Positions 1,241 through 29,676 of a stretch of 31,019 nt of DNA are shown here, one piece after another. The notes below the pieces were generated by a model, which made no database searches, had not been told where the DNA came from, and saw nothing but the letters and a program-made list of their open reading frames with translations. The stretch is from IMG/VR virus record IMGVR_UViG_3300042521_002020, positions 1 to 31,019 of that record; one strand, given 5' to 3'. A program made the position numbers and the translations under genes. Within the stretch, counting starts at the first letter, position 1; each line of letters begins with the position of its first letter. This stretch comes from a virus.

Positions 1241-1543
1241 GTGTCTGTAAAAAGATTAGTCCCTTTACATGCAGTAGCATTAGAATCAGATCCAGTTGTA
1301 GGTAGAATTGGTGATCTTTATTATAATGTAACAGAATCAGAGCTAAGATACTATGATGGTACCACCTGGAATCCAATCGGTGGCGGAGCAATTACTGGCT
1401 TATTAGACCATGTTCATACTTACGACGGAAATGTTTTTTCTGTTTCGGAATCTACAGTTGCATCAACTGGAACCTTAGATGGAGGAAATCCATTTTCAGA
1501 GTTTGGAAACTTACCAGGAAATCTTGATGCAGGTGAAGCGTAA
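1241..1543 (+). CDS. Small fibre-associated protein with a fibre-tip-like motif
   Basis: This is a 100-residue protein starting at GTG 1241, with AAGGGGG 7-13 bases upstream as ribosome binding site. The segment around residues 20-48 ([20 protein letters not shown], then TTWNPIG) matches a short repeat common in phage fibres, in which a G-D-L-Y-Y-N turn is followed by a Y-D-G-T-x-W hairpin. The rest is Gly/Ser rich with no recognisable domain. It sits 11 bases after the upstream fibre and its stop codon overlaps the start of the collagen-like fibre (TAATG), so translation is probably coupled. It is likely a small fibre subunit or linker. A specific function cannot be assigned. Confidence 0.6.
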
Positions 1544-2499
1544 TGGCTATTGTACAAATAAGACGTGGCACTACATCTCAATGGTCTCAATCTACTAAAA
1601 TATTAAAAGTAGGCGAGCTTGGAATAGATACAACTCTTAATAGATTAAAAATTGGTAACGGTACAAGTCTTTGGAGTAACCTTCCTTTTATTATAGGAGA
1701 TAGAGGTGCAGATAGTACAGTTCCAGGTCCAAAGGGCGATACTGGAGATCAGGGCCCAGTTGGCCCAACAGGTGCAGCAAGTACTGTGCCTGGACCACAA
1801 GGTCCAGCAGGGCCGCAAGGGCCACAAGGACTAAAAGGCGATACAGGATTAACAGGACCAAAAGGCGATACAGGATTAACTGGCGCAGCAGGTGCACAAG
1901 GAATTCAAGGTTTAACAGGTCCACAAGGTTTAAGAGGAGAAACAGGTTTAACAGGTGCAGCAGGTGCAGCAAGCACCGTACCTGGGCCACAGGGTTTAAA
2001 GGGAGATACTGGTGACACAGGACCACAAGGTCCACAAGGATTAAAGGGCGATACTGGAGATCAGGGCCCAGCAGGCGCAGCAACTTTTAATGGACAAACA
2101 GATGTAACAAACGCTGGTCTTACAATTGATAAAATTGCTTATCCTGCAATTACTAGGTTAGATGTAACAAATAGTGGATCTTCAGCATATCTATTTATGA
2201 ATCAATATGGCGGAAGCAATCCAACAATATATGCAATTTCAGGTACAACCATAGCATTTAATTTAAATGTTTCTGGACACCCATTTTTGATTAGATTTTC
2301 TGGAGCAAATTACAACACAGGGCTGATTCACGTTTCAACAACAGGAGTCATATCTACTGGTACCGATGCTCAAGGCAAAACTAGCGGAACCCTATATTGG
2401 CAAATTCCTCAAGGTATAAACGGAAATTACGGATACCTTTGCTCGTTTCATAGTGGAATGACTGGTACCATAACTATTAAGGATATAGCAACAATATGA
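1543..2499 (+). CDS. Collagen-like tail fibre with C-terminal cupredoxin-like domain
   Basis: 318 residues in three parts. Residues 1-52 ([28 protein letters not shown]-type) match the N-terminal attachment domain of Mtd-like phage fibres. Residues about 55-180 are Gly-X-Y triplets broken by STVPGP segments, which should form a collagen-like triple helix. Residues about 185-318 contain H246 in GHPF and C300-x2-H303-x2-M306 in the last strands, the ligand pattern of type-1 copper proteins, with amicyanin-like Cys-x2-His-x2-Met spacing. The known family role of these parts is virion attachment, shaft and exposed tip. Copper binding is inferred from ligands only. Almost all prolines in the triplets are in the X position. 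The start overlaps the previous stop and the end overlaps the next ATG (ATGA). Confidence 0.85.
1705..2082 (+). repeat. Collagen-like Gly-X-Y coding repeat
   Basis: This stretch encodes about 38 Gly-X-Y triplets ([18 protein letters not shown]) within the 1543 fibre. STVPGP interruptions occur three times and give Val-Pro-Gly sites. At DNA level it is a degenerate repeat of phrases such as ggaccacaaggtccacaagg. It is protein-coding low complexity, not a mobile or regulatory repeat. Confidence 0.9.
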
Positions 2500-2726
2500 C
2501 AATAGAGACCGTAGGTAATTGGGAATGGGAAGTAGAGGAAAGCGATACAGCGCCTCTGCTTAATTTGACTATCAAAAATATTTCTGAAAATAAAACAGTA
2601 AAACTACTTAATATTAATTGGGCTACTGGAAGAGAAGACTTTTTAGAGCACTCTTACAATATGGCAATTGAAACTCTGAGCGGAGGAGACAACTGCTGTC
2701 TTGAAGGAAAGGTTGTGATGATATAA
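2496..2726 (+). CDS. Small hypothetical protein between two fibres
   Basis: This 76-residue protein has an ATG that overlaps the stop of the collagen-like fibre (ATGA), so it is probably translated by re-initiation. It starts [17 protein letters not shown] and is predicted mixed beta. A Cys-Cys pair lies near the C-terminus (DNCCLEG). There is no signal peptide, membrane segment or motif I recognise. Its position between two Mtd-N/cupredoxin fibres suggests an accessory or chaperone role for one of them, but that is inference from position only. Confidence 0.55.
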
Positions 2727-4199
2727 ATGGCATCTAGAATAAGAATAAGAAGAGGCACAACAACTCAATGGAACTCTTCTACCAAAATTTTGGAGTCTGG
2801 CGAACTTGGTATTGACACAACTTTAAACAAGGTAAAAGCAGGAAACGGAATTAATATCTGGTCAGCCTTGCCTTATCTAACACCACCAGTTGCAGAAGTA
2901 CAAGAAATGGCACAAGATGGAGTAGCCGCAGCTTTATCTGCTGGAACGCATTCAAATATAGTTGTATCTTACAGTGATGAGAATAACAGCATAAGTCTTT
3001 CAACTGGTCCAGATGTAGTAACAACAACTAGTCTTTCAACAACTTTAACAGATTCAACAACTGGATATGTTCCATACGGAGATATTGGTCAGCCAGATGG
3101 AGTGGCTTCACTAGATTCAAGTGGTAAGATTCCAGACTCAGAAATTCCAGCCACTATTGCTAGAGATACAGAAATTCCATCATCAACATCTTCTCTATCA
3201 GAAGGAACAAATCTTTATTTTACAGATGAGAGAGCACAAGATGCGGTAGGTAACAGCCTTGGATCTGGATTATCATACAATGATACAACTGGTGCAATAT
3301 CTGTAGATACTTCAATTATATCTACTAAGACATATGCTGAGACAACAGCTACTACAGCAGCTACTACAGTATTTAATAATATATTGGATTCTGCTCCGAC
3401 AGCTTTAAATACTTTAAATGAACTTGCAGCAGCAATAAATGATGATCAAAACTTTGCAACCACTATTACAACAGCATTAGGAACAAAATTAAATACAGCA
3501 ACGGCAGCTTCTGACTATTTAAAGATAACTGATGCTGCTTCTACATATTTATCACAAACAGCAGCTACAACAACCTACCTAGCTAAAACTCAGCCAGCTT
3601 TAGACTATCAGATTTTTAATAGTGGAACAGGTGGATACGTAGTAAATGGAACTATAAATGGACCAATTACTTTAATTCCTGGAAAGCCTGCCAGAATTTC
3701 TATACAAGCACCAGGACATCCGTTTTGGTTTCAAACTTCATATGGAGCATACAATCAAGCAAATGTTTATGAGACTGGTATAGCAGGATCTGGAACAGCT
3801 ACTGGACAAATAGAAATTTTACTTCCACTAGATGCTCCACAGCTTTACTATGCATGTCAATTCCATGAGCCAATGAAGGGTGTTGTTTTATTTGAAAAAG
3901 ATAGCAGCCTTCAAACATTTGCCGCCAAGACTGGGTCTTATACTGCAGTTTTAATGGATATGGGAAAGATTATTGAAATGTCAGGTGGCGGAACCTTTAC
4001 AATAACAGATTCAACATCATTCCCAGTAGGAACAACATTTGAAGTTCTTCAAACTGGATCTTCTCAGGTAACAATAGCTGGAGATGGTTTTACTATTAAT
4101 GCTACACCAGGTTTAAAGCTCAGAACACAGTGGTCTGCCGCAACTATAATCAAAAGAGGCACGAATAGCTGGGTCGCTTTTGGAGACTTGGTAGCTTGA
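2727..4199 (+). CDS. Modular tail fibre with internal cupredoxin-like domain
   Basis: 490 residues. Residues 1-50 repeat the Mtd-like N-terminal domain of the 1543 fibre ([28 protein letters not shown]). A shaft follows with modules also seen in the 7633 fibre: SLSEGTNLYFTDERAQDAVG (about 156-175) and DSAPTALNTLNELAAAINDD (221-240). Residues about 300-390 form a second cupredoxin-like domain with H331 in GHPF and C377-x2-H380-x2-M383 in LYYACQFHEPMKG. A C-terminal beta domain (about 395-490, IIEMSGGGTFTITDSTSFPVG) looks like a common fibre head. Sharing an N-terminus with the 1543 gene suggests both proteins attach to the same virion site. The gene begins directly after the 2496 stop with only a weak ribosome binding site. 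Confidence 0.85.
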   Translation: MASRIRIRRGTTTQWNSSTKILESGELGIDTTLNKVKAGNGINIWSALPYLTPPVAEVQEMAQDGVAAALSAGTHSNIVVSYSDENNSISLSTGPDVVTTTSLSTTLTDSTTGYVPYGDIGQPDGVASLDSSGKIPDSEIPATIARDTEIPSSTSSLSEGTNLYFTDERAQDAVGNSLGSGLSYNDTTGAISVDTSIISTKTYAETTATTAATTVFNNILDSAPTALNTLNELAAAINDDQNFATTITTALGTKLNTATAASDYLKITDAASTYLSQTAATTTYLAKTQPALDYQIFNSGTGGYVVNGTINGPITLIPGKPARISIQAPGHPFWFQTSYGAYNQANVYETGIAGSGTATGQIEILLPLDAPQLYYACQFHEPMKGVVLFEKDSSLQTFAAKTGSYTAVLMDMGKIIEMSGGGTFTITDSTSFPVGTTFEVLQTGSSQVTIAGDGFTINATPGLKLRTQWSAATIIKRGTNSWVAFGDLVA

Positions 4200-4202
4200 T
4201 AA

Positions 4203-5285
4203 ATGTCAAGACTCAATAAAAAATTTTTTAGCCGATTAGGTATCAGAAAAGTAGATGTACCCAACCTATCTGGATTAAATAGAGACCAGGCAATAGCTGT
4301 ATTAAATGCCGTTGGCTTAGTGCCAGTAGATACTCCAACAAATACAGAAAATATTAATTTAAATCTAGGAATTGTTTCTCAATCGCAAGCTGCAGGATCT
4401 ACGGTTTTAATTGGTTCACAAGTTTCTTTTAATTATTATAATTATGTAGCTCCACCAAACTTTAACCCAGGATTTAACCCAGGATTCAACCCAGGATTTG
4501 CTAACCCAGGATTTAACCCAGGATTTGGTGTTGTTTGTGATTATGTTGATGCACCAACTTACTGTACTGGTGTAGACTCTCAAGGCTACGGAGATGCTTA
4601 TCAGCGGTCATGGACAGCTGGATGTCCAGATGTTTATTTAGGAAGAAGTTTCTGTGGTGTTCCTAACCCAGGATTTAACCCAGGATTCAACGAACCAGCA
4701 TTCAACGAACCAGCATTCAACGAACCAGCATTTGACACACCGCTCTTTGGAGGATCTGGAGATCTGACTAATCTTGATCTTAGCGCACTATTTAGTTTTG
4801 GTGGCAAAAGCGTTGGCATTACAACTTTAGTTAGAACTACCGATGGTCTTGTTAAAGCAGGAGATTTACGAGTCGGAGACACTCTTTTATCTGCAAATAT
4901 TGAAGGATTCCCTTATGAAGGAGATGAAGGAATAACTGCTCAAGCGATTGCTTGGTCAGATAATAATCCTAGCATAATCCCAGAAGTTACAACTATAGCT
5001 AATATCTATAAAACACAATCTGCATATGCGGTTGTAATTAATGAAGATATATTTTCTCAATACCACTATATTTTAATTAAAAGAAATGGCGTATCTAAGT
5101 TTGAAACTTCAGTAAATATAGTTAAAGAAACTGATTTGGTTTATTCATATGACACTAGCAGCTGGGAGCCTATTTATCTTTATGAAATAGTTCAGGCTCC
5201 ACACGATATTATTTCTATCAACTGTGAGCCATACGATATGTTTTTTACAGAAAGGATGTTAACTCATGATTCAAGCGCAATATAA
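4203..5285 (+). CDS. PASTA-domain adhesin with NPGF repeats and C-terminal Hint domain
   Basis: 360 residues. Residues about 16-77 read as one PASTA domain (VDVPNLSGLNRDQAIAVLNA, then GIVSQSQAAGSTVLIGSQVSF), a family that binds peptidoglycan stem peptides and muropeptides. Residues 88-108 and 155-162 carry seven NPGF repeats, followed by three NEPAF units. Between them lies a four-Cys segment (about 112-152). Residues 203-356 resemble a minimal Hint (hedgehog/intein) fold: block A TTLVRTTDGLVKAGDLRVGD, a His in YHYIL, and a last block IISINCEPYDMFFTERMLTHD. The usual first Cys is Ser203 and the terminal His-Asn is His355-Asp356. Only four residues follow, so normal splicing is unlikely, but self-cleavage or ester-mediated attachment is possible. 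The end overlaps the next gene by 20 bases. Confidence 0.75.
   Translation: MSRLNKKFFSRLGIRKVDVPNLSGLNRDQAIAVLNAVGLVPVDTPTNTENINLNLGIVSQSQAAGSTVLIGSQVSFNYYNYVAPPNFNPGFNPGFNPGFANPGFNPGFGVVCDYVDAPTYCTGVDSQGYGDAYQRSWTAGCPDVYLGRSFCGVPNPGFNPGFNEPAFNEPAFNEPAFDTPLFGGSGDLTNLDLSALFSFGGKSVGITTLVRTTDGLVKAGDLRVGDTLLSANIEGFPYEGDEGITAQAIAWSDNNPSIIPEVTTIANIYKTQSAYAVVINEDIFSQYHYILIKRNGVSKFETSVNIVKETDLVYSYDTSSWEPIYLYEIVQAPHDIISINCEPYDMFFTERMLTHDSSAI
4464..4526 (+). repeat. NPGF coding repeat, first block
   Basis: Five 12-base units of the type aacccaggattt encode Asn-Pro-Gly-Phe within the PASTA/Hint protein. A gct insertion separates units three and four. The near-identical units suggest slippage or recent expansion. 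They form an exposed flexible linker containing X-Pro-Gly sites. Confidence 0.9.
4665..4733 (+). repeat. NPGF/NEPAF coding repeat, second block
   Basis: Two aacccaggattt-type units are followed by three tandem 15-base units (aacgaaccagcattc), which encode NPGF twice and then NEPAF three times. The third unit differs only by a silent change in the last codon. This is the linker immediately before the Hint-like domain of the 4203 protein. Confidence 0.9.
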
Positions 5286-6933: not shown

Positions 6934-7584
6934 ATGATAATTGACACCCCAGCAATTGGAATAAAAATATATAGAAACGCTTTGCCAGAAGCAATGAACA
7001 TTCCAGCAAGGCTAGAAAAGGTCTTAAGTTCAGGTAAAAGCTCAATGTTTAAGTGGTCGATTGCCACAGTTGGAGACCACGTACAAAAATTAGATTACAG
7101 AGATTGTGTCGATTTTAAAATCAAAAGAGATTCTTTGAGGCCAGGGAATGAACTATCTGACGAAATAATATCTGTTCATGATCAAATAACAGAAAAGCTT
7201 CAAGAGTGTTTAAAGGATTACATGAGAGCATACAATACGAACACACTGCACTACATGGAAGCTATAAACTTTGTTCGTTATGGAGAAGGACAGCATTTTA
7301 AAACACACCCAGACAGCGGCCCAAGCTATTCATGCGACGTATCTACTGTTATGTATTTAAATAGCGACTATGAGGGTGGAGAGCTGTACTTCCCCCATTT
7401 TGACTATACCTATGTTCCTCAATATGGCGACATTGTGCTATTCCCATCTAGCTATCTTTTTTCACATGCCGCCTTACCAGTAAAGTCTGGAATAAAGTAT
7501 TCTGCAGTAACTATGTTTTCATATAACGATAGAAACCATCAAGATCATGGTAGGTATCAGGGCCAGGTTTCTAAAGTTCTATAG
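6934..7584 (+). CDS. Prolyl 4-hydroxylase-like Fe(II)/2-oxoglutarate-dependent oxygenase
   Basis: 216 residues with a strong ribosome binding site (AAAGGAGA) before ATG 6934. The catalytic half is intact: H125-P-D127 in GQHFKTHPDSG binds Fe(II), the distal His178 lies in LFSHAALPV, and Lys188, exactly ten residues later, binds the 2-oxoglutarate carboxylate. YLNSDYEGGELYFP and YGDIVLFPSSY are classic P4H strands. Members of this family hydroxylate proline in proteins (collagen, collagen-like proteins, EF-Tu), using O2 and 2-oxoglutarate and releasing succinate and CO2. Here the gene sits between two collagen-like fibres and just after the NPGF-repeat adhesin, all of which contain X-Pro-Gly. 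A role in fibre hydroxylation is therefore a reasonable inference, though some phage oxygenases of this fold act on other substrates. Confidence 0.9.
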   Translation: MIIDTPAIGIKIYRNALPEAMNIPARLEKVLSSGKSSMFKWSIATVGDHVQKLDYRDCVDFKIKRDSLRPGNELSDEIISVHDQITEKLQECLKDYMRAYNTNTLHYMEAINFVRYGEGQHFKTHPDSGPSYSCDVSTVMYLNSDYEGGELYFPHFDYTYVPQYGDIVLFPSSYLFSHAALPVKSGIKYSAVTMFSYNDRNHQDHGRYQGQVSKVL

Positions 7585-13641: not shown

Positions 13642-16293
13642 ATGGCAGTATCAGATGTCCCAATAATTGGCACGGCTACCAAAACTGGATCGACAACAGC
13701 AACAGTAGCATTTGCGGCACCACTTAATGATGGTGGCTCTACAATTACTAACTATACTGCCTTATCAACTCCTGGCAGTATAACTGCATCATCGGCAACA
13801 TCTCCAATTACAGTCACAGGATTAAACCCTGGAACAGAATATACTTTTACTGTAACGGCTACAAATGGAGATGGCGTATCTGGTCCTTCTGCTCCAAGTA
13901 ATAGCATTACAACAGATGCTGTTGTTCCTGATGCTCCAACTGTTGGAACAGCTACAAAAACTGGAACAACAACTGCAACTTTAGCATTTCTCCCACCAAC
14001 TTCTAATGGTGGTAGGCCAGTTACTAGTTATACAGTAACTTCTCTTCCTGGTAGCATTACAGCTACTGGAACATCTTCTCCAGTTTCAATTACGGGACTG
14101 ACTTCAGGAACACAATATACATTTACGGTAACAGCTACAAACTCTATTGGTACCTCTAGCCCCTCACAGGCAAGTAATGCTGTAACTACAGATTACGTAA
14201 ATCCTAACAGCCCAGGTGCACCAACAATTGGAACTGCTGCAAAGACTGGTTCAACAACAGCAAATGTTCCATTCACAGCGCCAGCATCAGATGGCGGATA
14301 TGCAATTACTACATACACTGCCATATCAACTCCTGGTGGTATTACTGGAACACTTTCTCAAGCAGGCAGCGGAACAGTTCCCGTTACTGGACTAACCCCT
14401 GGAACAGATTATACATTCGTAGTATTTGCAACAAACTCACAAGGCGCTGGTAGTAACTCATCTGCAAGTAATACAATTACAACAGATGCAGCAGCACCTA
14501 GCGCCCCTTTAAATCCTGTAGCTACTAAATTAAGCTCAACAACTGCAAGAGTTACGTTTAATGAGCCAGCTACAAGCAATGGAGCAGCAGTAACTACTTA
14601 CACAGTTACATCAACTCCTGGAAATGTCACTGCCACTGGATCAGGATCTCCTATTACAGTTACAGGACTAACTGCTGCAACAGCCTATTCATTTACAGTA
14701 ACAGCTACAAACTCCGCTGGCACATCTGTTGCCTCAGCGCCAAGTAATCAGATTGTTTCAGATGCCACAGTTCCTGGAGTACCAACTGTTGGTACAGCAG
14801 TAAAGCTAACATCAACATCAGCACGGATTCCATTTACGCCACCAGCTTCAAATGGTGGAGCAGCAATTTCTAACTACACAGTTACATCAACTCCTGGCAA
14901 CATCGTTGCCTCATCAACAACATCACCTATTACTATTACAGGATTAACTCCTGCGACATCATACACATTTACCGTAAAGGCAACTAACTTTGTTGGAGAC
15001 GGAAACGCTTCCGCTTCAAGTAACAGCATAACAACAGACGCAGCAGACGTATTTGCACCAGATGCCCCAACAATAGGAACAGCAACAAAAACAGGATCTA
15101 CAACAGCAACTGCTGCGTTTACTGCTCCAGCTTCAAATGGTGGCGCAGCAATCATTGGATACATTGGTACATCAACCCCTGGTGGCATTATTGCTTCATC
15201 AACAACATCGCCAATGACTTTCACAGGATTAACTCCTGCTACACACTATACATTTAAGGTAAGAGCAGTTAACTCTGTTGGCACTGGACCTGAATCAGCT
15301 GCAAGTAATATTGTAAATACAGACAGTGCTCCTCCTGGACCACCAACTGTTGGAATTGCTTCAAAAACTGGAGCAACAACTGCAGTACTTGCATTTACTC
15401 CACCAACCGTAACTAACGGTCAGACAATTACTGGATACACTGTTTCATCAACCCCAATCGGTGGATCAGGTGCAGGAGCCACATCCCCAATACTTGTGAC
15501 AGGTCTTACTCCAGCAACAGCCTACACCTTTAAGGTTAGAGCGATTACAAGCTCTTCTGAGGGTGAGCAATCAAATTCAAGTAATATTATTACAACTGAC
15601 TTTGGAAGCTCAGCTAACTACGCTACATTGTCAAATCAAATTGAGACAATCAAGACAAAAATTAATGCTTTAACATCTACAAACTTAAATGCAGAGCAGA
15701 TTTTGTATGTGTCAAAGTCTTTAGTTACTTTATCTGAGGCACTAGGCGTAGAAGATGTTGTTGAAGCCACCGCAAATGCAATTGAAAGAATTGATGATGC
15801 TGGAGCGGCAGCAATTACGCTTGTTAGCGGAACAGCTAATGGGGCAGCAGTTGCAAATCTAAGCAATAAGTATACTGCACTACAGGCAACATATGACAAT
15901 ATTAATCCTAGAGTAACCTCTCTTGAAGGAGTGATTACAAATCAAGAATCAAATATTGCATCAGCATCAGCCCTAGCAGTAAGCGCTGGATATAATCCAT
16001 GGCAAATTTTAACAGCTAACAAGCTTCTAGTAAATAGAGATAGAGTTTTTGTTAACACACCAGCACTTGGCGGTGGAGTAGGTGGATTAACATTAACACT
16101 TCCAGCAGGACCTGCAATAGGACATGTTGTAGAGATAGTAGATATTTCTGGAAATGCATCAACAAACTTCTTTACTATAGCTAGAAATGGCGAAAGAATT
16201 CAAGGAGTAGAGGAAGACCTTATCTTCAACGTAAACAATAAGGCTATGAAATTAATATATTCAAATACTGCAAAAGGATGGAGAATCGCATAA
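13642..16293 (+). CDS. Seven-FN3-domain tail fibre with coiled coil and fibre-head domain
   Basis: 883 residues with AAGGAG before the ATG. Seven fibronectin type III domains of roughly 90 residues fill about residues 3-653, each with G-T-A-T-K-T-G-S-T-T-A, S-T-P-G-x-I-x-A, V-T-G-L-x-P-x-T-x-Y-T-F-x-V and a closing S-N-x-I-T-T-D. A helical segment (about 657-710, IETIKTKINALTSTNLNAEQ, then LYVSKSLVTLSEALGVEDVV) is shared with the separate 17643 gene. From about 783 a beta head follows (WQILTANKLLVNRDRVFVNT; VVEIVDISGNAS; TIARNGERIQG; MKLIYSNTAKGWRIA), a common fibre C-terminus in marine phages. FN3 arrays on phage virions are thought to bind surface carbohydrate weakly. The stop overlaps the next start (TAATG). 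Confidence 0.88.
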   Translation: MAVSDVPIIGTATKTGSTTATVAFAAPLNDGGSTITNYTALSTPGSITASSATSPITVTGLNPGTEYTFTVTATNGDGVSGPSAPSNSITTDAVVPDAPTVGTATKTGTTTATLAFLPPTSNGGRPVTSYTVTSLPGSITATGTSSPVSITGLTSGTQYTFTVTATNSIGTSSPSQASNAVTTDYVNPNSPGAPTIGTAAKTGSTTANVPFTAPASDGGYAITTYTAISTPGGITGTLSQAGSGTVPVTGLTPGTDYTFVVFATNSQGAGSNSSASNTITTDAAAPSAPLNPVATKLSSTTARVTFNEPATSNGAAVTTYTVTSTPGNVTATGSGSPITVTGLTAATAYSFTVTATNSAGTSVASAPSNQIVSDATVPGVPTVGTAVKLTSTSARIPFTPPASNGGAAISNYTVTSTPGNIVASSTTSPITITGLTPATSYTFTVKATNFVGDGNASASSNSITTDAADVFAPDAPTIGTATKTGSTTATAAFTAPASNGGAAIIGYIGTSTPGGIIASSTTSPMTFTGLTPATHYTFKVRAVNSVGTGPESAASNIVNTDSAPPGPPTVGIASKTGATTAVLAFTPPTVTNGQTITGYTVSSTPIGGSGAGATSPILVTGLTPATAYTFKVRAITSSSEGEQSNSSNIITTDFGSSANYATLSNQIETIKTKINALTSTNLNAEQILYVSKSLVTLSEALGVEDVVEATANAIERIDDAGAAAITLVSGTANGAAVANLSNKYTALQATYDNINPRVTSLEGVITNQESNIASASALAVSAGYNPWQILTANKLLVNRDRVFVNTPALGGGVGGLTLTLPAGPAIGHVVEIVDISGNASTNFFTIARNGERIQGVEEDLIFNVNNKAMKLIYSNTAKGWRIA
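13648..15600 (+). repeat. Seven tandem FN3-coding units
   Basis: Seven in-frame units of about 275-290 bases encode FN3 domains. Recurrent DNA phrases such as acaactcctggcagtataac and acaggattaactcctgc appear in several units, indicating internal duplication. Units five and six are especially alike, which suggests recent exchange or duplication. Confidence 0.8.
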
Positions 16294-25331: not shown

Positions 25332-25670
25332 ATGGAAATGAATAACATACGTCGTCAAGTAATAGAAGAATCACCACTTGGGATATATGTGTGGGAAATG
25401 CCTGATGGCAGATGGATTGGAGATGACGATGGGAACTTTCTTTCAGTCACGGCCAAAAAAGGAAATAGATCCCTCATCGATGCTTTGGCTAGAGAAGTTC
25501 GCTCATATGGCATATATGAAGGCGGGCCTAAGTTTCTTTCCGCTAGGCGCAAAATTAACGACGAAGAATTTGCAGAACAAAAGCAAAGACTTGAATGGGG
25601 ACTAGTTCCAGATCCATTTGATATTGGAAACTATAAAGACGAAATTAAAAAGTTAGGTAAATTGAAATGA
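25332..25670 (+). CDS. Conserved-looking small protein before the portal
   Basis: 112 residues. The ATG at 25332 sits seven bases after a -10 box and lacks a ribosome binding site; a second in-frame ATG is at 25338. The sequence is compact and charged (SPLGIYVWEMPDGRWIGDDD, then GNFLSVTAKKGNRSLIDALA, then GPKFLSARRKINDEEF), with a W-E-M-P-D-G-x-W-I-G-D-D-D-G beta hairpin and a C-terminal helix. There is no terminase motif (no Walker A or nuclease acids). Translation is coupled to the portal by an ATGA overlap. The position suggests a role in packaging or head assembly, but I do not recognise the family. Confidence 0.65.
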   Translation: MEMNNIRRQVIEESPLGIYVWEMPDGRWIGDDDGNFLSVTAKKGNRSLIDALAREVRSYGIYEGGPKFLSARRKINDEEFAEQKQRLEWGLVPDPFDIGNYKDEIKKLGKLK

Positions 25671-27250
25671 CAAAGTATGTAGAAGATGATGACTCTCAGG
25701 ATATTGTAGTTTCAAACGTAGCGGACTGGATGAAGTTTAATACTCCAAGAGAAGAAACAACTACAGATTTATTTAAAGTAAGTGGAGAAGAGCTTACAAA
25801 GATTTCAGGGCTTAGCCCAGCATTTCGTCGCAAGATGAATAGAGACCTTCAAAAAAGATTCCAGGGTATTGATGGAACAGAAACTCAGCAGAACTTATTG
25901 CAGCAAGCAGTTACTGGCTACGCAATGTTTGATCTTGTTGAGCCTCCATACAACCTAGACTACCTATCAACTATTTACGAAATTTCCCCATACAACTATT
26001 CAGCAATTAATGCTAAGGTTTCAAATATTGTGGGTCTTGGACACGACTTTATTGAAACACGTAAGACGCAAGAAGCTTTTGATAATATTACAGATGATAA
26101 GTCATTAGAACGTGCCCGTCGTAAATTAAATCGTCTTCGCCAAGATCTTTATGACTGGCTAGAAGAATGTAATGAAGAAGAAACATTTACTGAAACTTTA
26201 ATTAAGGCTTACACAGATGTTGAAGCAACAGGTAATGGCTACATTGAAATCGGAAGAACGTCAGCAGGTAAGATTGGATATATTGGACATATCCCAGCAA
26301 AGACAATGCGTGTGCGCCGCCTACGTGATGGCTTTATTCAATTGCTTTATGGCAAGGCAGTTTTCTTCCGCACATTTGGAGATCAAGAAACAGAGAATCC
26401 AATTGCAGGCGGGCTAGATAGACCGAATGAAATTATTCACCTAAAGAAGTATACGCCTACAAATAACTATTACGGTATCCCAGACATTGTGGCCTCATCA
26501 AATGCTATGGCAGGAAATGAATTTGCTGGAAAGTATAACCTAGATTACTTTGAAAACAAAGCAGTCCCTCGCTATATTATTACAGTAAAAGGAGCAAAGC
26601 TTTCTACGGAGTCTGAGCGTAAGCTACTTGAGTTTTTCCAGGTTGGGTTAAGAGGAAAGAATCACAGATCCCTTTATATTCCGCTTCCACCAGATTCCCC
26701 AGATTCTAAAACTGAATTTAAGATGGAGCCAATTGAGGCAGGAACTCAAGAGTCTTCATTTAACGTATATCGTAAATCAAATAGAGACGAAATCCTTCTA
26801 TCCCACCGTGTGCCAATTAATAAAATTGGAACCCCAGAAGGAGTTAACTTGGCGGTGGCAAGAGATGCCGATAAGACATTTAGAGAGCAAGTATGTCGTC
26901 CAGCACAAATGAATTTGGAAAAGAAATTAAATAAGATCATTGAAGAGATGACAGATGCCCTTATTCTTAAATTTAATGAGCTTACCCTGACAGATGAAGA
27001 CACTCAATCTAAAATTGATGAGCGTTATTTAAGAATGCAGGTAGTGACTCCTAATGAAATAAGAATTAGAATGGGCATGGTTCCACTTGAGGGTGGAGAT
27101 AAAGTTGTTGAATTAAAGCCACAGGCACAGGCAGAGACCAGAGCACAGGCAGGCAAAACCAGAACTAGAGATTCTGAAAGGTCTGCAAATTCCCCCGATA
27201 TTTCTGGAGAGGGAAGAAATGCTCAAGGAGATGGAAGACAAGTCGACTAA
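25667..27250 (+). CDS. Phage portal protein
   Basis: 527 residues, ATGA overlap with the previous gene. It matches the PBSX/HK97-type portal family: an entry helix region (YLSTIYEISPYNYSAINAKV), the wing strands (GNGYIEIGRTSAGKIGYIGH, RVRRLRDGFIQLLYG), the crossover NEIIHLKKYTPTNNYYGIPD, and clip/stem segments (YFENKAVPRYIITVKG; DEILLSHRVPINKIGTPEGV). The C-terminus (about 480-527) is a disordered Gln/Arg/Ser-rich tail. Portals form the dodecameric vertex through which DNA enters and the tail attaches. The length is normal. The head protease follows after 53 bases rather than a MuF gene. The terminase expected upstream is absent. Confidence 0.93.
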   Translation: MTKYVEDDDSQDIVVSNVADWMKFNTPREETTTDLFKVSGEELTKISGLSPAFRRKMNRDLQKRFQGIDGTETQQNLLQQAVTGYAMFDLVEPPYNLDYLSTIYEISPYNYSAINAKVSNIVGLGHDFIETRKTQEAFDNITDDKSLERARRKLNRLRQDLYDWLEECNEEETFTETLIKAYTDVEATGNGYIEIGRTSAGKIGYIGHIPAKTMRVRRLRDGFIQLLYGKAVFFRTFGDQETENPIAGGLDRPNEIIHLKKYTPTNNYYGIPDIVASSNAMAGNEFAGKYNLDYFENKAVPRYIITVKGAKLSTESERKLLEFFQVGLRGKNHRSLYIPLPPDSPDSKTEFKMEPIEAGTQESSFNVYRKSNRDEILLSHRVPINKIGTPEGVNLAVARDADKTFREQVCRPAQMNLEKKLNKIIEEMTDALILKFNELTLTDEDTQSKIDERYLRMQVVTPNEIRIRMGMVPLEGGDKVVELKPQAQAETRAQAGKTRTRDSERSANSPDISGEGRNAQGDGRQVD

Positions 27251-28626: not shown

Positions 28627-29676
28627 ATGAGTAATGAAAACTTAGAAAAAGCTATCGCTGCAGGTACAACTGCAACAGGTACTTTTGCAGGAGTTACAGG
28701 TGTCGGCGGTCAGCATAAAGCTGGCGAGTCAGGCAATGCTGGTCTCCTAAACGCAGAACAATCAGCTCGCTTCCTGGACTACATGTTCGACGCTACCGTA
28801 ATTGGTAAGGTCGCCCGTACAGTTCGTATGAAGGCAGACACATCTGAGATTGATCGTATGTCCGTTGGTGAGAAGCTTATGAAGCTTGCAACCGAAGGTG
28901 ACAATACAGCCGTAAATGGCGCAGTAACTTTCTCAAAAATCTCTTTGACAACAAAGAAACTCCGCATGGATTGGGAGCTTTCAACAGAGTCTCTAGAAGA
29001 TAACATCGAAGGTGCAGATCTTGAAGATCATATTGCACGTTTGATGGCAACACAGGCAGGTAATGACATTGAAGATGTAATCCTCAATGGAGATACTGCA
29101 CTAACAGGCGATGCCCTATACAAGTCATTTGATGGCGTTGTAAAGAAGGCAAAGGCTAATGCACACGTAGTAGATGCTCTTGGAGCAGGCGTAAGCCGTG
29201 AGTTGTTTAACAAGGCACTCAAGGCAATGCCACGTAAGTACAAGCAACGTCGTGCAGACCTTCGCTTCCTAGCAGGATCAAACCTGATTCAGGATTTCCT
29301 ATATGCTAACAGCATTGGAACAAACCAAACAATTCCACAAGATATCGCATCAAGCGTAATCCGTGGTGGAACTGCACCTCTAGGTGGACCAGCAGGATAT
29401 GTGGCACCATTCGCATTCGGTATTCCGATTGTTGAAGTACCACTTCTTAATGAGACACAGACAGGTTCATACACATCTCCATCAGGAGTACACGGCGACG
29501 TCCACTTGACATTCCCAAATAACGTAGTTATTGGTATCAAGCGTGATGTAACAGTTTACCGCTTCTTCGAGCCACGTAAGGACTCAATCGAGTACACATT
29601 GTATACTCGTGTTGGCGTTCAAATCGAGCAGGCAGACGCCTGGGTAGTTGTTCGCAACGTTAAGGTTGCTTCCTAA
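28627..29676 (+). CDS. Major capsid protein, HK97 fold
   Basis: 349 residues, with AGGTAGGTG upstream. The N-terminal arm (about 1-38) is Gly/Thr/Ala rich. The fold follows: LLNAEQSARFLDYMFDATVI, TKKLRMDWELSTESLEDNIE (E-loop/P-domain spine), a spine helix ending GNDIEDVILNGD, RRADLRFLAGSNLIQDFLYA (A-domain), GIPIVEVPLLNE and NVVIGIKRDVTVYRFFEPRK. It is clearly the capsid subunit by family pattern and by position after the protease/scaffold. Every Arg codon I checked is CGT or CGC, whereas neighbouring tail genes use AGA, consistent with selection for high expression. It is followed by a strong intrinsic terminator. Confidence 0.93.
   Translation: MSNENLEKAIAAGTTATGTFAGVTGVGGQHKAGESGNAGLLNAEQSARFLDYMFDATVIGKVARTVRMKADTSEIDRMSVGEKLMKLATEGDNTAVNGAVTFSKISLTTKKLRMDWELSTESLEDNIEGADLEDHIARLMATQAGNDIEDVILNGDTALTGDALYKSFDGVVKKAKANAHVVDALGAGVSRELFNKALKAMPRKYKQRRADLRFLAGSNLIQDFLYANSIGTNQTIPQDIASSVIRGGTAPLGGPAGYVAPFAFGIPIVEVPLLNETQTGSYTSPSGVHGDVHLTFPNNVVIGIKRDVTVYRFFEPRKDSIEYTLYTRVGVQIEQADAWVVVRNVKVAS

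Follow-up and report, generated by a model that had tools for sequence, protein, structure and literature searches.

The two neighboring tail fibers encoded in the virus record analyzed here, an IMG/VR-classed stretch of 31,019 bases from a lake phage, referred to below as the window, raise the question of why a phage should carry on each of two adjacent fibers a domain that looks equipped to hold a copper ion, and of what such a domain might do. An earlier note on this DNA, made from the sequence alone, had claimed that both fibers contain cupredoxin-like domains with a complete type-1 ligand set. The residues it named, a first histidine and a later Cys-x2-His-x2-Met loop, are indeed present in both proteins (Table 1), and the His-to-Cys spacings are those it gave, i.e., 54 residues in fiber 1 and 46 in fiber 2. 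The profile matches span slightly wider stretches of both proteins than the domain limits it gave (225-318 and 300-390). Each fiber protein has a single cysteine, which is the putative ligand, and the ligand motif is absent from the other main open reading frames (ORFs) of the window that were scanned.

Table 1. Coordinates of the two fiber genes, their domains and their putative copper ligands in the window
Feature	Position	Strand	Description or support
Tail fiber 1, 318 aa	1543..2499	+	Mtd_N-like start, collagen-like shaft, C-terminal cupredoxin domain
Fiber 1 Mtd_N-like N-terminal domain, residues 4-42	1552..1668	+	PF18454 E 4.1e-14
Fiber 1 best collagen triple-helix stretch, residues 84-142; further repeats on either side	1792..1968	+	PF01391 E 3e-17
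Fiber 1 cupredoxin domain (domain 1), residues 203-315	2149..2487	+	Profile match E 2.9e-39; AlphaFold2; Foldseek and VIA-align
Fiber 1 H246, first putative copper ligand, in GHPF (245-248)	2278..2280	+	
Fiber 1 C300-x2-H303-x2-M306, other three putative copper ligands	2440..2460	+	
Small ORF, 76 aa, no family, separating the fiber genes	2496..2726	+	
Tail fiber 2, 490 aa	2727..4199	+	Mtd_N-like start, shaft, cupredoxin domain, C-terminal domain
Fiber 2 Mtd_N-like N-terminal domain, residues 5-41	2739..2849	+	PF18454 E 2.4e-10
Fiber 2 cupredoxin domain (domain 2), residues 290-388	3594..3890	+	Profile match E 4.3e-30; AlphaFold2; AcoP, rusticyanin and nitrite reductase matches
Fiber 2 H331, first putative copper ligand, in GHPF (330-333)	3717..3719	+	
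Fiber 2 C377-x2-H380-x2-M383, other three putative copper ligands	3855..3875	+	
Fiber 2 C-terminal domain past the cupredoxin, residues 388-488	3888..4190	+	phrog_21978 E 7.4e-12

Both proteins open with the N-terminal domain of the Major tropism determinant (Mtd_N), and many of the PHROGs families that they match are annotated as tail proteins; from these family names we infer that fibers 1 and 2 are virion components. A C-terminal domain like that of fiber 2 is also found behind a cupredoxin domain of the fiber 1 type in two related records (L041 and L044), and its occurrence behind another cupredoxin subtype is a sign of module exchange between fibers.

The fold of both domains was predicted with high confidence by AlphaFold2, with mean pLDDT values of 94.9 for domain 1 (33 related sequences) and 93.8 for domain 2 (23 sequences). 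When the model of domain 1 was compared with the PDB by Foldseek, 124 chains matched at E <= 0.001, with rusticyanin at the top (E 1.3e-5) followed by copper nitrite reductase, laccases, plastocyanin and amicyanin, and its superposition on copper nitrite reductase with VIA-align 2 gave a Z of 12.4 and an rmsd of 2.2 over 110 residues. The best matches of domain 2 were AcoP and rusticyanin (E 3.7e-4 to 8.8e-4), the latter superposing with a Z of 9.5 and an rmsd of 3.1 over 97 residues. The strand order of the models is cupredoxin-like, the first histidine lying between two strands and the cysteine, histidine and methionine being arranged around the last loop. Solved cupredoxins are the best matches of both models in this comparison, which the earlier note had proposed as a check, and by their predicted fold, a Greek-key beta sandwich, both domains belong to the cupredoxin superfamily.

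The profile search that had been proposed alongside led in the same direction, matching almost only cupredoxins among PDB sequences: a profile built from 24 diverse members found copper nitrite reductase as its best match (E 2.5e-6), and nearly all of the best 60 matches listed are cupredoxins, many of them amicyanins, plastocyanins and rusticyanins. In the alignments of a separate search the cysteine, histidine and methionine of the loop line up with the amicyanin ligands and the first histidine with that of pseudoazurin. The proline of the fiber domains follows the histidine (GHPF), whereas in plastocyanin and amicyanin it precedes it, and in the alignments of the 24-member profile to the latter two proteins it is the prolines that are paired, not the histidines; the exact register of the first histidine is therefore taken from pseudoazurin and the fold, together with an apparent likeness between GHPF and the GHSF motif of rusticyanin. 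Alignments and fold matches together uphold the claim of a complete type-1 ligand set with a short Cys-x2-His-x2-Met loop of the kind that the fiber domains have in common with amicyanin.

The named families score low. Pfam PF00127 (Copper-bind) gives 12.5 bits for the whole of fiber 1 and 15.1 for domain 1, below the gathering threshold of 21.2, and does not match fiber 2, and the plastocyanin equivalog TIGR02656 reaches 14.1 bits on domain 1, far under its cut-off of 87.85, thereby marking these as cupredoxin-fold domains that lie outside both families. Hence, the fiber domains share the predicted fold and the His/Cys/His/Met set with the type-1 cupredoxins (rusticyanin, amicyanin, pseudoazurin, plastocyanin and the domains of copper nitrite reductase), but they differ in scoring below the Pfam and NCBIfam cut-offs and in sitting in phage tail proteins without a known redox partner.

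A further argument for a metal site comes from conservation. Domains 1 and 2 are only about 28% identical, yet they agree in all four ligand positions (His, Cys, His and Met). Among 150 near-full-length distinct domains obtained from about 250 loci, every one keeps all four ligands, and just six of the 105 columns are invariant, namely the four ligands, the proline after the first histidine and the tyrosine two residues before the cysteine; the same six are invariant among 64 representatives with a median pairwise identity of 36%. Part of these relatives had been retrieved with patterns that include the ligands, for which reason two ligand-independent control sets were assembled. In the first, relatives of domain 2 were collected by N-terminal patterns only, and the four ligands were found in 32 of 32 distinct complete domains, the sole exception being a domain cut by a contig end. 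In the second, cyanophage gp9 proteins were collected by their N-terminal 300 residues, and all 50 distinct complete proteins retain the four ligands; many other columns are invariant in this set too, so that it indicates the absence of ligand loss rather than selective conservation. The earlier note had held the ligands to be specifically conserved amid a diverged domain and had looked to their loss in homologues as evidence to the contrary; the first point agrees with the pattern of invariant columns, and no such loss was seen in the 150 domains or in either control set. As judged from these alignments, the conservation of the ligands exceeds chance, and the invariance of the axial methionine argues for a selected metal site. 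Because the four type-1 ligands, including this usually variable methionine, are kept without exception, we think it likely that the predicted sites of both domains bind copper.

Two other readings of the same residues have to be weighed here. The cupredoxin fold can work metal-free, and members that do so usually lose their ligands. That the four residues are kept in the phage domains for folding or as a binding surface, on a virion that holds no metal, would be in keeping with the very low level of free copper in the cytoplasm, where phage proteins fold, as well as with the equal invariance of the proline and the tyrosine; we nonetheless regard this as decidedly improbable, given that the type-1 ligands are four of the six invariant columns and include the only cysteine of each window protein, and that folding alone would not require His, Cys, His and Met together. 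A purely structural clamp formed by another metal (zinc, iron or silver) has, in our estimation, a very slight probability: for a Bacillus cupredoxin among the structural matches there are both zinc and copper structures (4hcg, 4hcf) and iron sites on fibers are known (PMC11705849), but the invariant axial methionine and the cysteine favor copper over zinc or iron, and the HxH iron motif is missing from both fibers, whose only histidines are at 246, 263 and 303 (fiber 1) and at 75, 331 and 380 (fiber 2).

The module is by no means confined to the window. With domain 1 as the query, matches at E 0.001 were obtained in at least 231 of the 50,697 phage records searched, nearly all of them cyanophages, under the names of Synechococcus, Cyanophage, Prochlorococcus, Marine and Actinomycetia phages, which bears out the earlier note's mention of similar motifs in marine phage proteins. 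In T4-like cyanophages (Kyanoviridae) the module is the C-terminal domain of gp9 and lies behind a T4 gp9/10 N-terminal domain; the corresponding family phrog_677 (baseplate wedge tail fiber protein connector) matches domain 1 with E 4e-24 at positions 303-411 of its 412, i.e., in its C-terminal region, and this is the same module with all of its ligands. The proteins differ at the other end: gp9 starts with the T4 gp9/10 N-terminal domain (T4_gp9_10_N, PF07880), which is present in Syn33 gp9 and in neither window fiber, whereas the window fibers start with Mtd_N and fiber 1 has collagen-like repeats in addition. The gene after gp9 in Syn33, syn9, P-RSM4, S-RIM8, S-RIM2 and S-RIM50 yields a second, weaker cupredoxin-like match, located in a large protein with GHPM or GHPI followed by Cys-x2-His-x2-Met (records L150, L159, L161, L162, L163 and L168), and a neighboring pair of cupredoxins is thus not unique to the window. 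Only broken partial matches were obtained in S-CAM1 (L164).

Other phages place the module in further surroundings. It is carried by the T7-like podovirus P-SCSP2, it follows a subtilase domain in ACG-2014i, and in S-H9-1 the protein that holds it bears the annotation subtilisin-like protease. The lake actinophage DSL-LC01 (Actinomycetia phage; L252:13038-14408, WJZ48554.1) has a fiber that keeps all the ligands and lies beside collagen-like fiber genes, as in the window; it differs in that the module is joined to a YHYH domain in one protein and that there is one such protein in the stretch, not two. The domain partners of the module hence comprise collagen repeats, T4 gp9/10 N-terminal domains, subtilase and YHYH, and the same partners recur among the predicted viral structures of BFVD. 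Of 185 cases in which its position was recorded, 122 have the module at the C-terminus, 62 have it internally and one has it close to the N-terminus. Plasmids gave no match and cellular genomes only three partial ones, which makes the module look like a viral one and not like a recent acquisition from a host. On these comparisons the arrangement is far more general than two fibers of one phage, and takes the form of a mobile module of aquatic phage tails.

Several smaller observations belong here. Two cyanophage proteins with a subtilase (peptidase S8) domain or annotation have the module as their end (L154:1186-3258 and L155:1240-3246), two BFVD phage proteins named YHYH match it, and a diverged type with HPLNF and YYWC-x2-H-x2-MG occurs as a second ORF or domain in six records (L029, L064, L066, L069, L075 and L076).

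As for the window phage, its portal protein (25667-27250) and major capsid protein (28627-29676) are 58% and 60% identical, respectively, to those of Streptomyces phages, e.g. Yaboi and BoomerJR, the latter a member of the Stanwilliamsviridae, and on account of these matches it is probably an aquatic actinophage. The occurrence of the actinobacterial marker WhiB in one of nine related records lends this link weak support. A cyanophage origin was considered and dropped, in view of the same portal and capsid matches and of the lack of a psbA-type gene in eight related records. No soil Streptomyces phage of this kind (Stanwilliamsviridae) is among the matches to the module, and the 41 kb of BoomerJR that were scanned, which include the portal, the capsid, the tape measure and several minor tail proteins, contain no copy above noise. 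Among 39 related records, nine have a capsid protein of the window type and four one of the T4 type, indicating that the module crosses lineages. These distributions, obtained by a search that reaches just moderately diverged members, suggest that it is tied to water and not to one host or lineage.

What, then, could the domain do? The earlier note had conjectured a more rigid fiber tip, redox sensing or the binding of a copper protein or surface ligand. The best overall explanation, which we hold with slightly more confidence than doubt, is that of a genuine copper-binding cupredoxin domain employed as a metal-clamped fiber module. In each domain His, Cys, His and Met would coordinate a single copper ion in the manner of a type-1 copper protein, and the domain would form a compact unit, placed at the distal tip of the fiber or close to it, that holds a host or virion partner and transfers no electrons. 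The Mtd_N start and the collagen-like, probably trimeric, shaft of fiber 1 would present three copies of the domain per fiber. Owing to the scarcity of free copper in the cytoplasm, the sites would be filled after lysis: the domains would assemble metal-free and take up copper from the lysate or the water once released, and this uptake would lock the loop that bears three of the four ligands. The shuffling of the module among shafts, proteases and baseplate connectors, together with its usual terminal position, speaks for a portable binding module over one with a fixed redox partner. A role in binding or connection, as read from nothing else than the position and the company of the domain, is nevertheless a tentative proposal that we would put at somewhat below an even chance.

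A redox role, whereby the copper site passes electrons or senses the redox state, for instance triggering a change in the fiber or handling reactive oxygen in sunlit water, would be the natural expectation for a complete type-1 ligand set, which normally constitutes an electron-transfer site. However, no redox partner or reductase was recognized among the window genes searched, the position and company of the module vary widely, and a lone one-electron site without a fixed partner has no obvious chemistry, all of which leaves this role with a slim chance.

We also consider it unlikely that the metal-loaded domain acts as a copper Trojan horse, serving as bait for a protein on the host surface that captures copper or the proteins carrying it, and in this way selecting the host. 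The strict conservation of the ligands is compatible with such a function, and there are precedents in the interaction of azurin, a secreted cupredoxin, with the TonB-dependent copper transporter OprC of Pseudomonas aeruginosa (PMC6907878) and in the iron sites on tail fibers that have been proposed to act likewise (PMC11705849). Nonetheless, the window phage has a capsid and portal of the actinophage type, and the lake actinophage bears the domain too. Since actinobacterial hosts have no outer membrane with TonB receptors, the bait would fit them poorly, while being conceivable for Gram-negative hosts. Moreover, in Kyanoviridae the domain is on gp9, which is annotated as a baseplate-fiber connector and is not a proven tip, and one and the same module serves very different hosts. 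We infer that binding or connection by a metal-clamped module that is loaded after lysis is to be favored over both redox chemistry and the Trojan horse. The widest version of this proposal appears rather doubtful to us: that unrelated aquatic tailed phages (T4-like, T7-like and Stanwilliamsviridae-like) share a mobile copper-carrying virion module, metallated after release and needed for adsorption or tail function, which would make virions both copper-dependent particles and copper ligands in water.

No paper naming these phage tail domains cupredoxins was found in the open-access literature, outside of which much else is published. Taken singly, the fold, the ligand set and the gp9 family are all known; what appears to be undescribed is that they come together on virion tails, with the ligands strictly conserved across lineages. 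The nearest published idea is that of iron bound by HxH motifs in tail fibers, with a proposed role in adsorption (PMC11705849). The T4 gp37-type long tail fibers of that proposal (the Trojan or Ferrojan Horse idea) likewise place a metal on a fiber, but the window domains differ from them in fold, in ligands and probably in the metal. Our findings suggest that the tails of aquatic phages carrying the module make use of a metal ion. Should copper be bound, many abundant aquatic phages, foremost the T4-like cyanophages, would bear on the tail a copper site overlooked by current annotation, in which the families are named gp9 connector, tail fiber or unknown; the iron proposals would gain a copper counterpart, the cupredoxin fold a new use outside electron transfer, and the supply of copper a testable link to infection.

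Finally, some neighbors of the fiber genes may be recorded. In the adjoining ORF (4203-5285), NPGF-type repeats come after a PASTA domain (E 6e-8), a kind of domain that often binds cell-wall peptides. A 2OG-Fe(II) oxygenase gene lies near the fibers at 6934-7584, and P-SSM2 (L151) has a gene annotated as piuC three genes past its cupredoxin fiber. A large protein encoded at 13642-16293 comprises seven fibronectin type III stretches.
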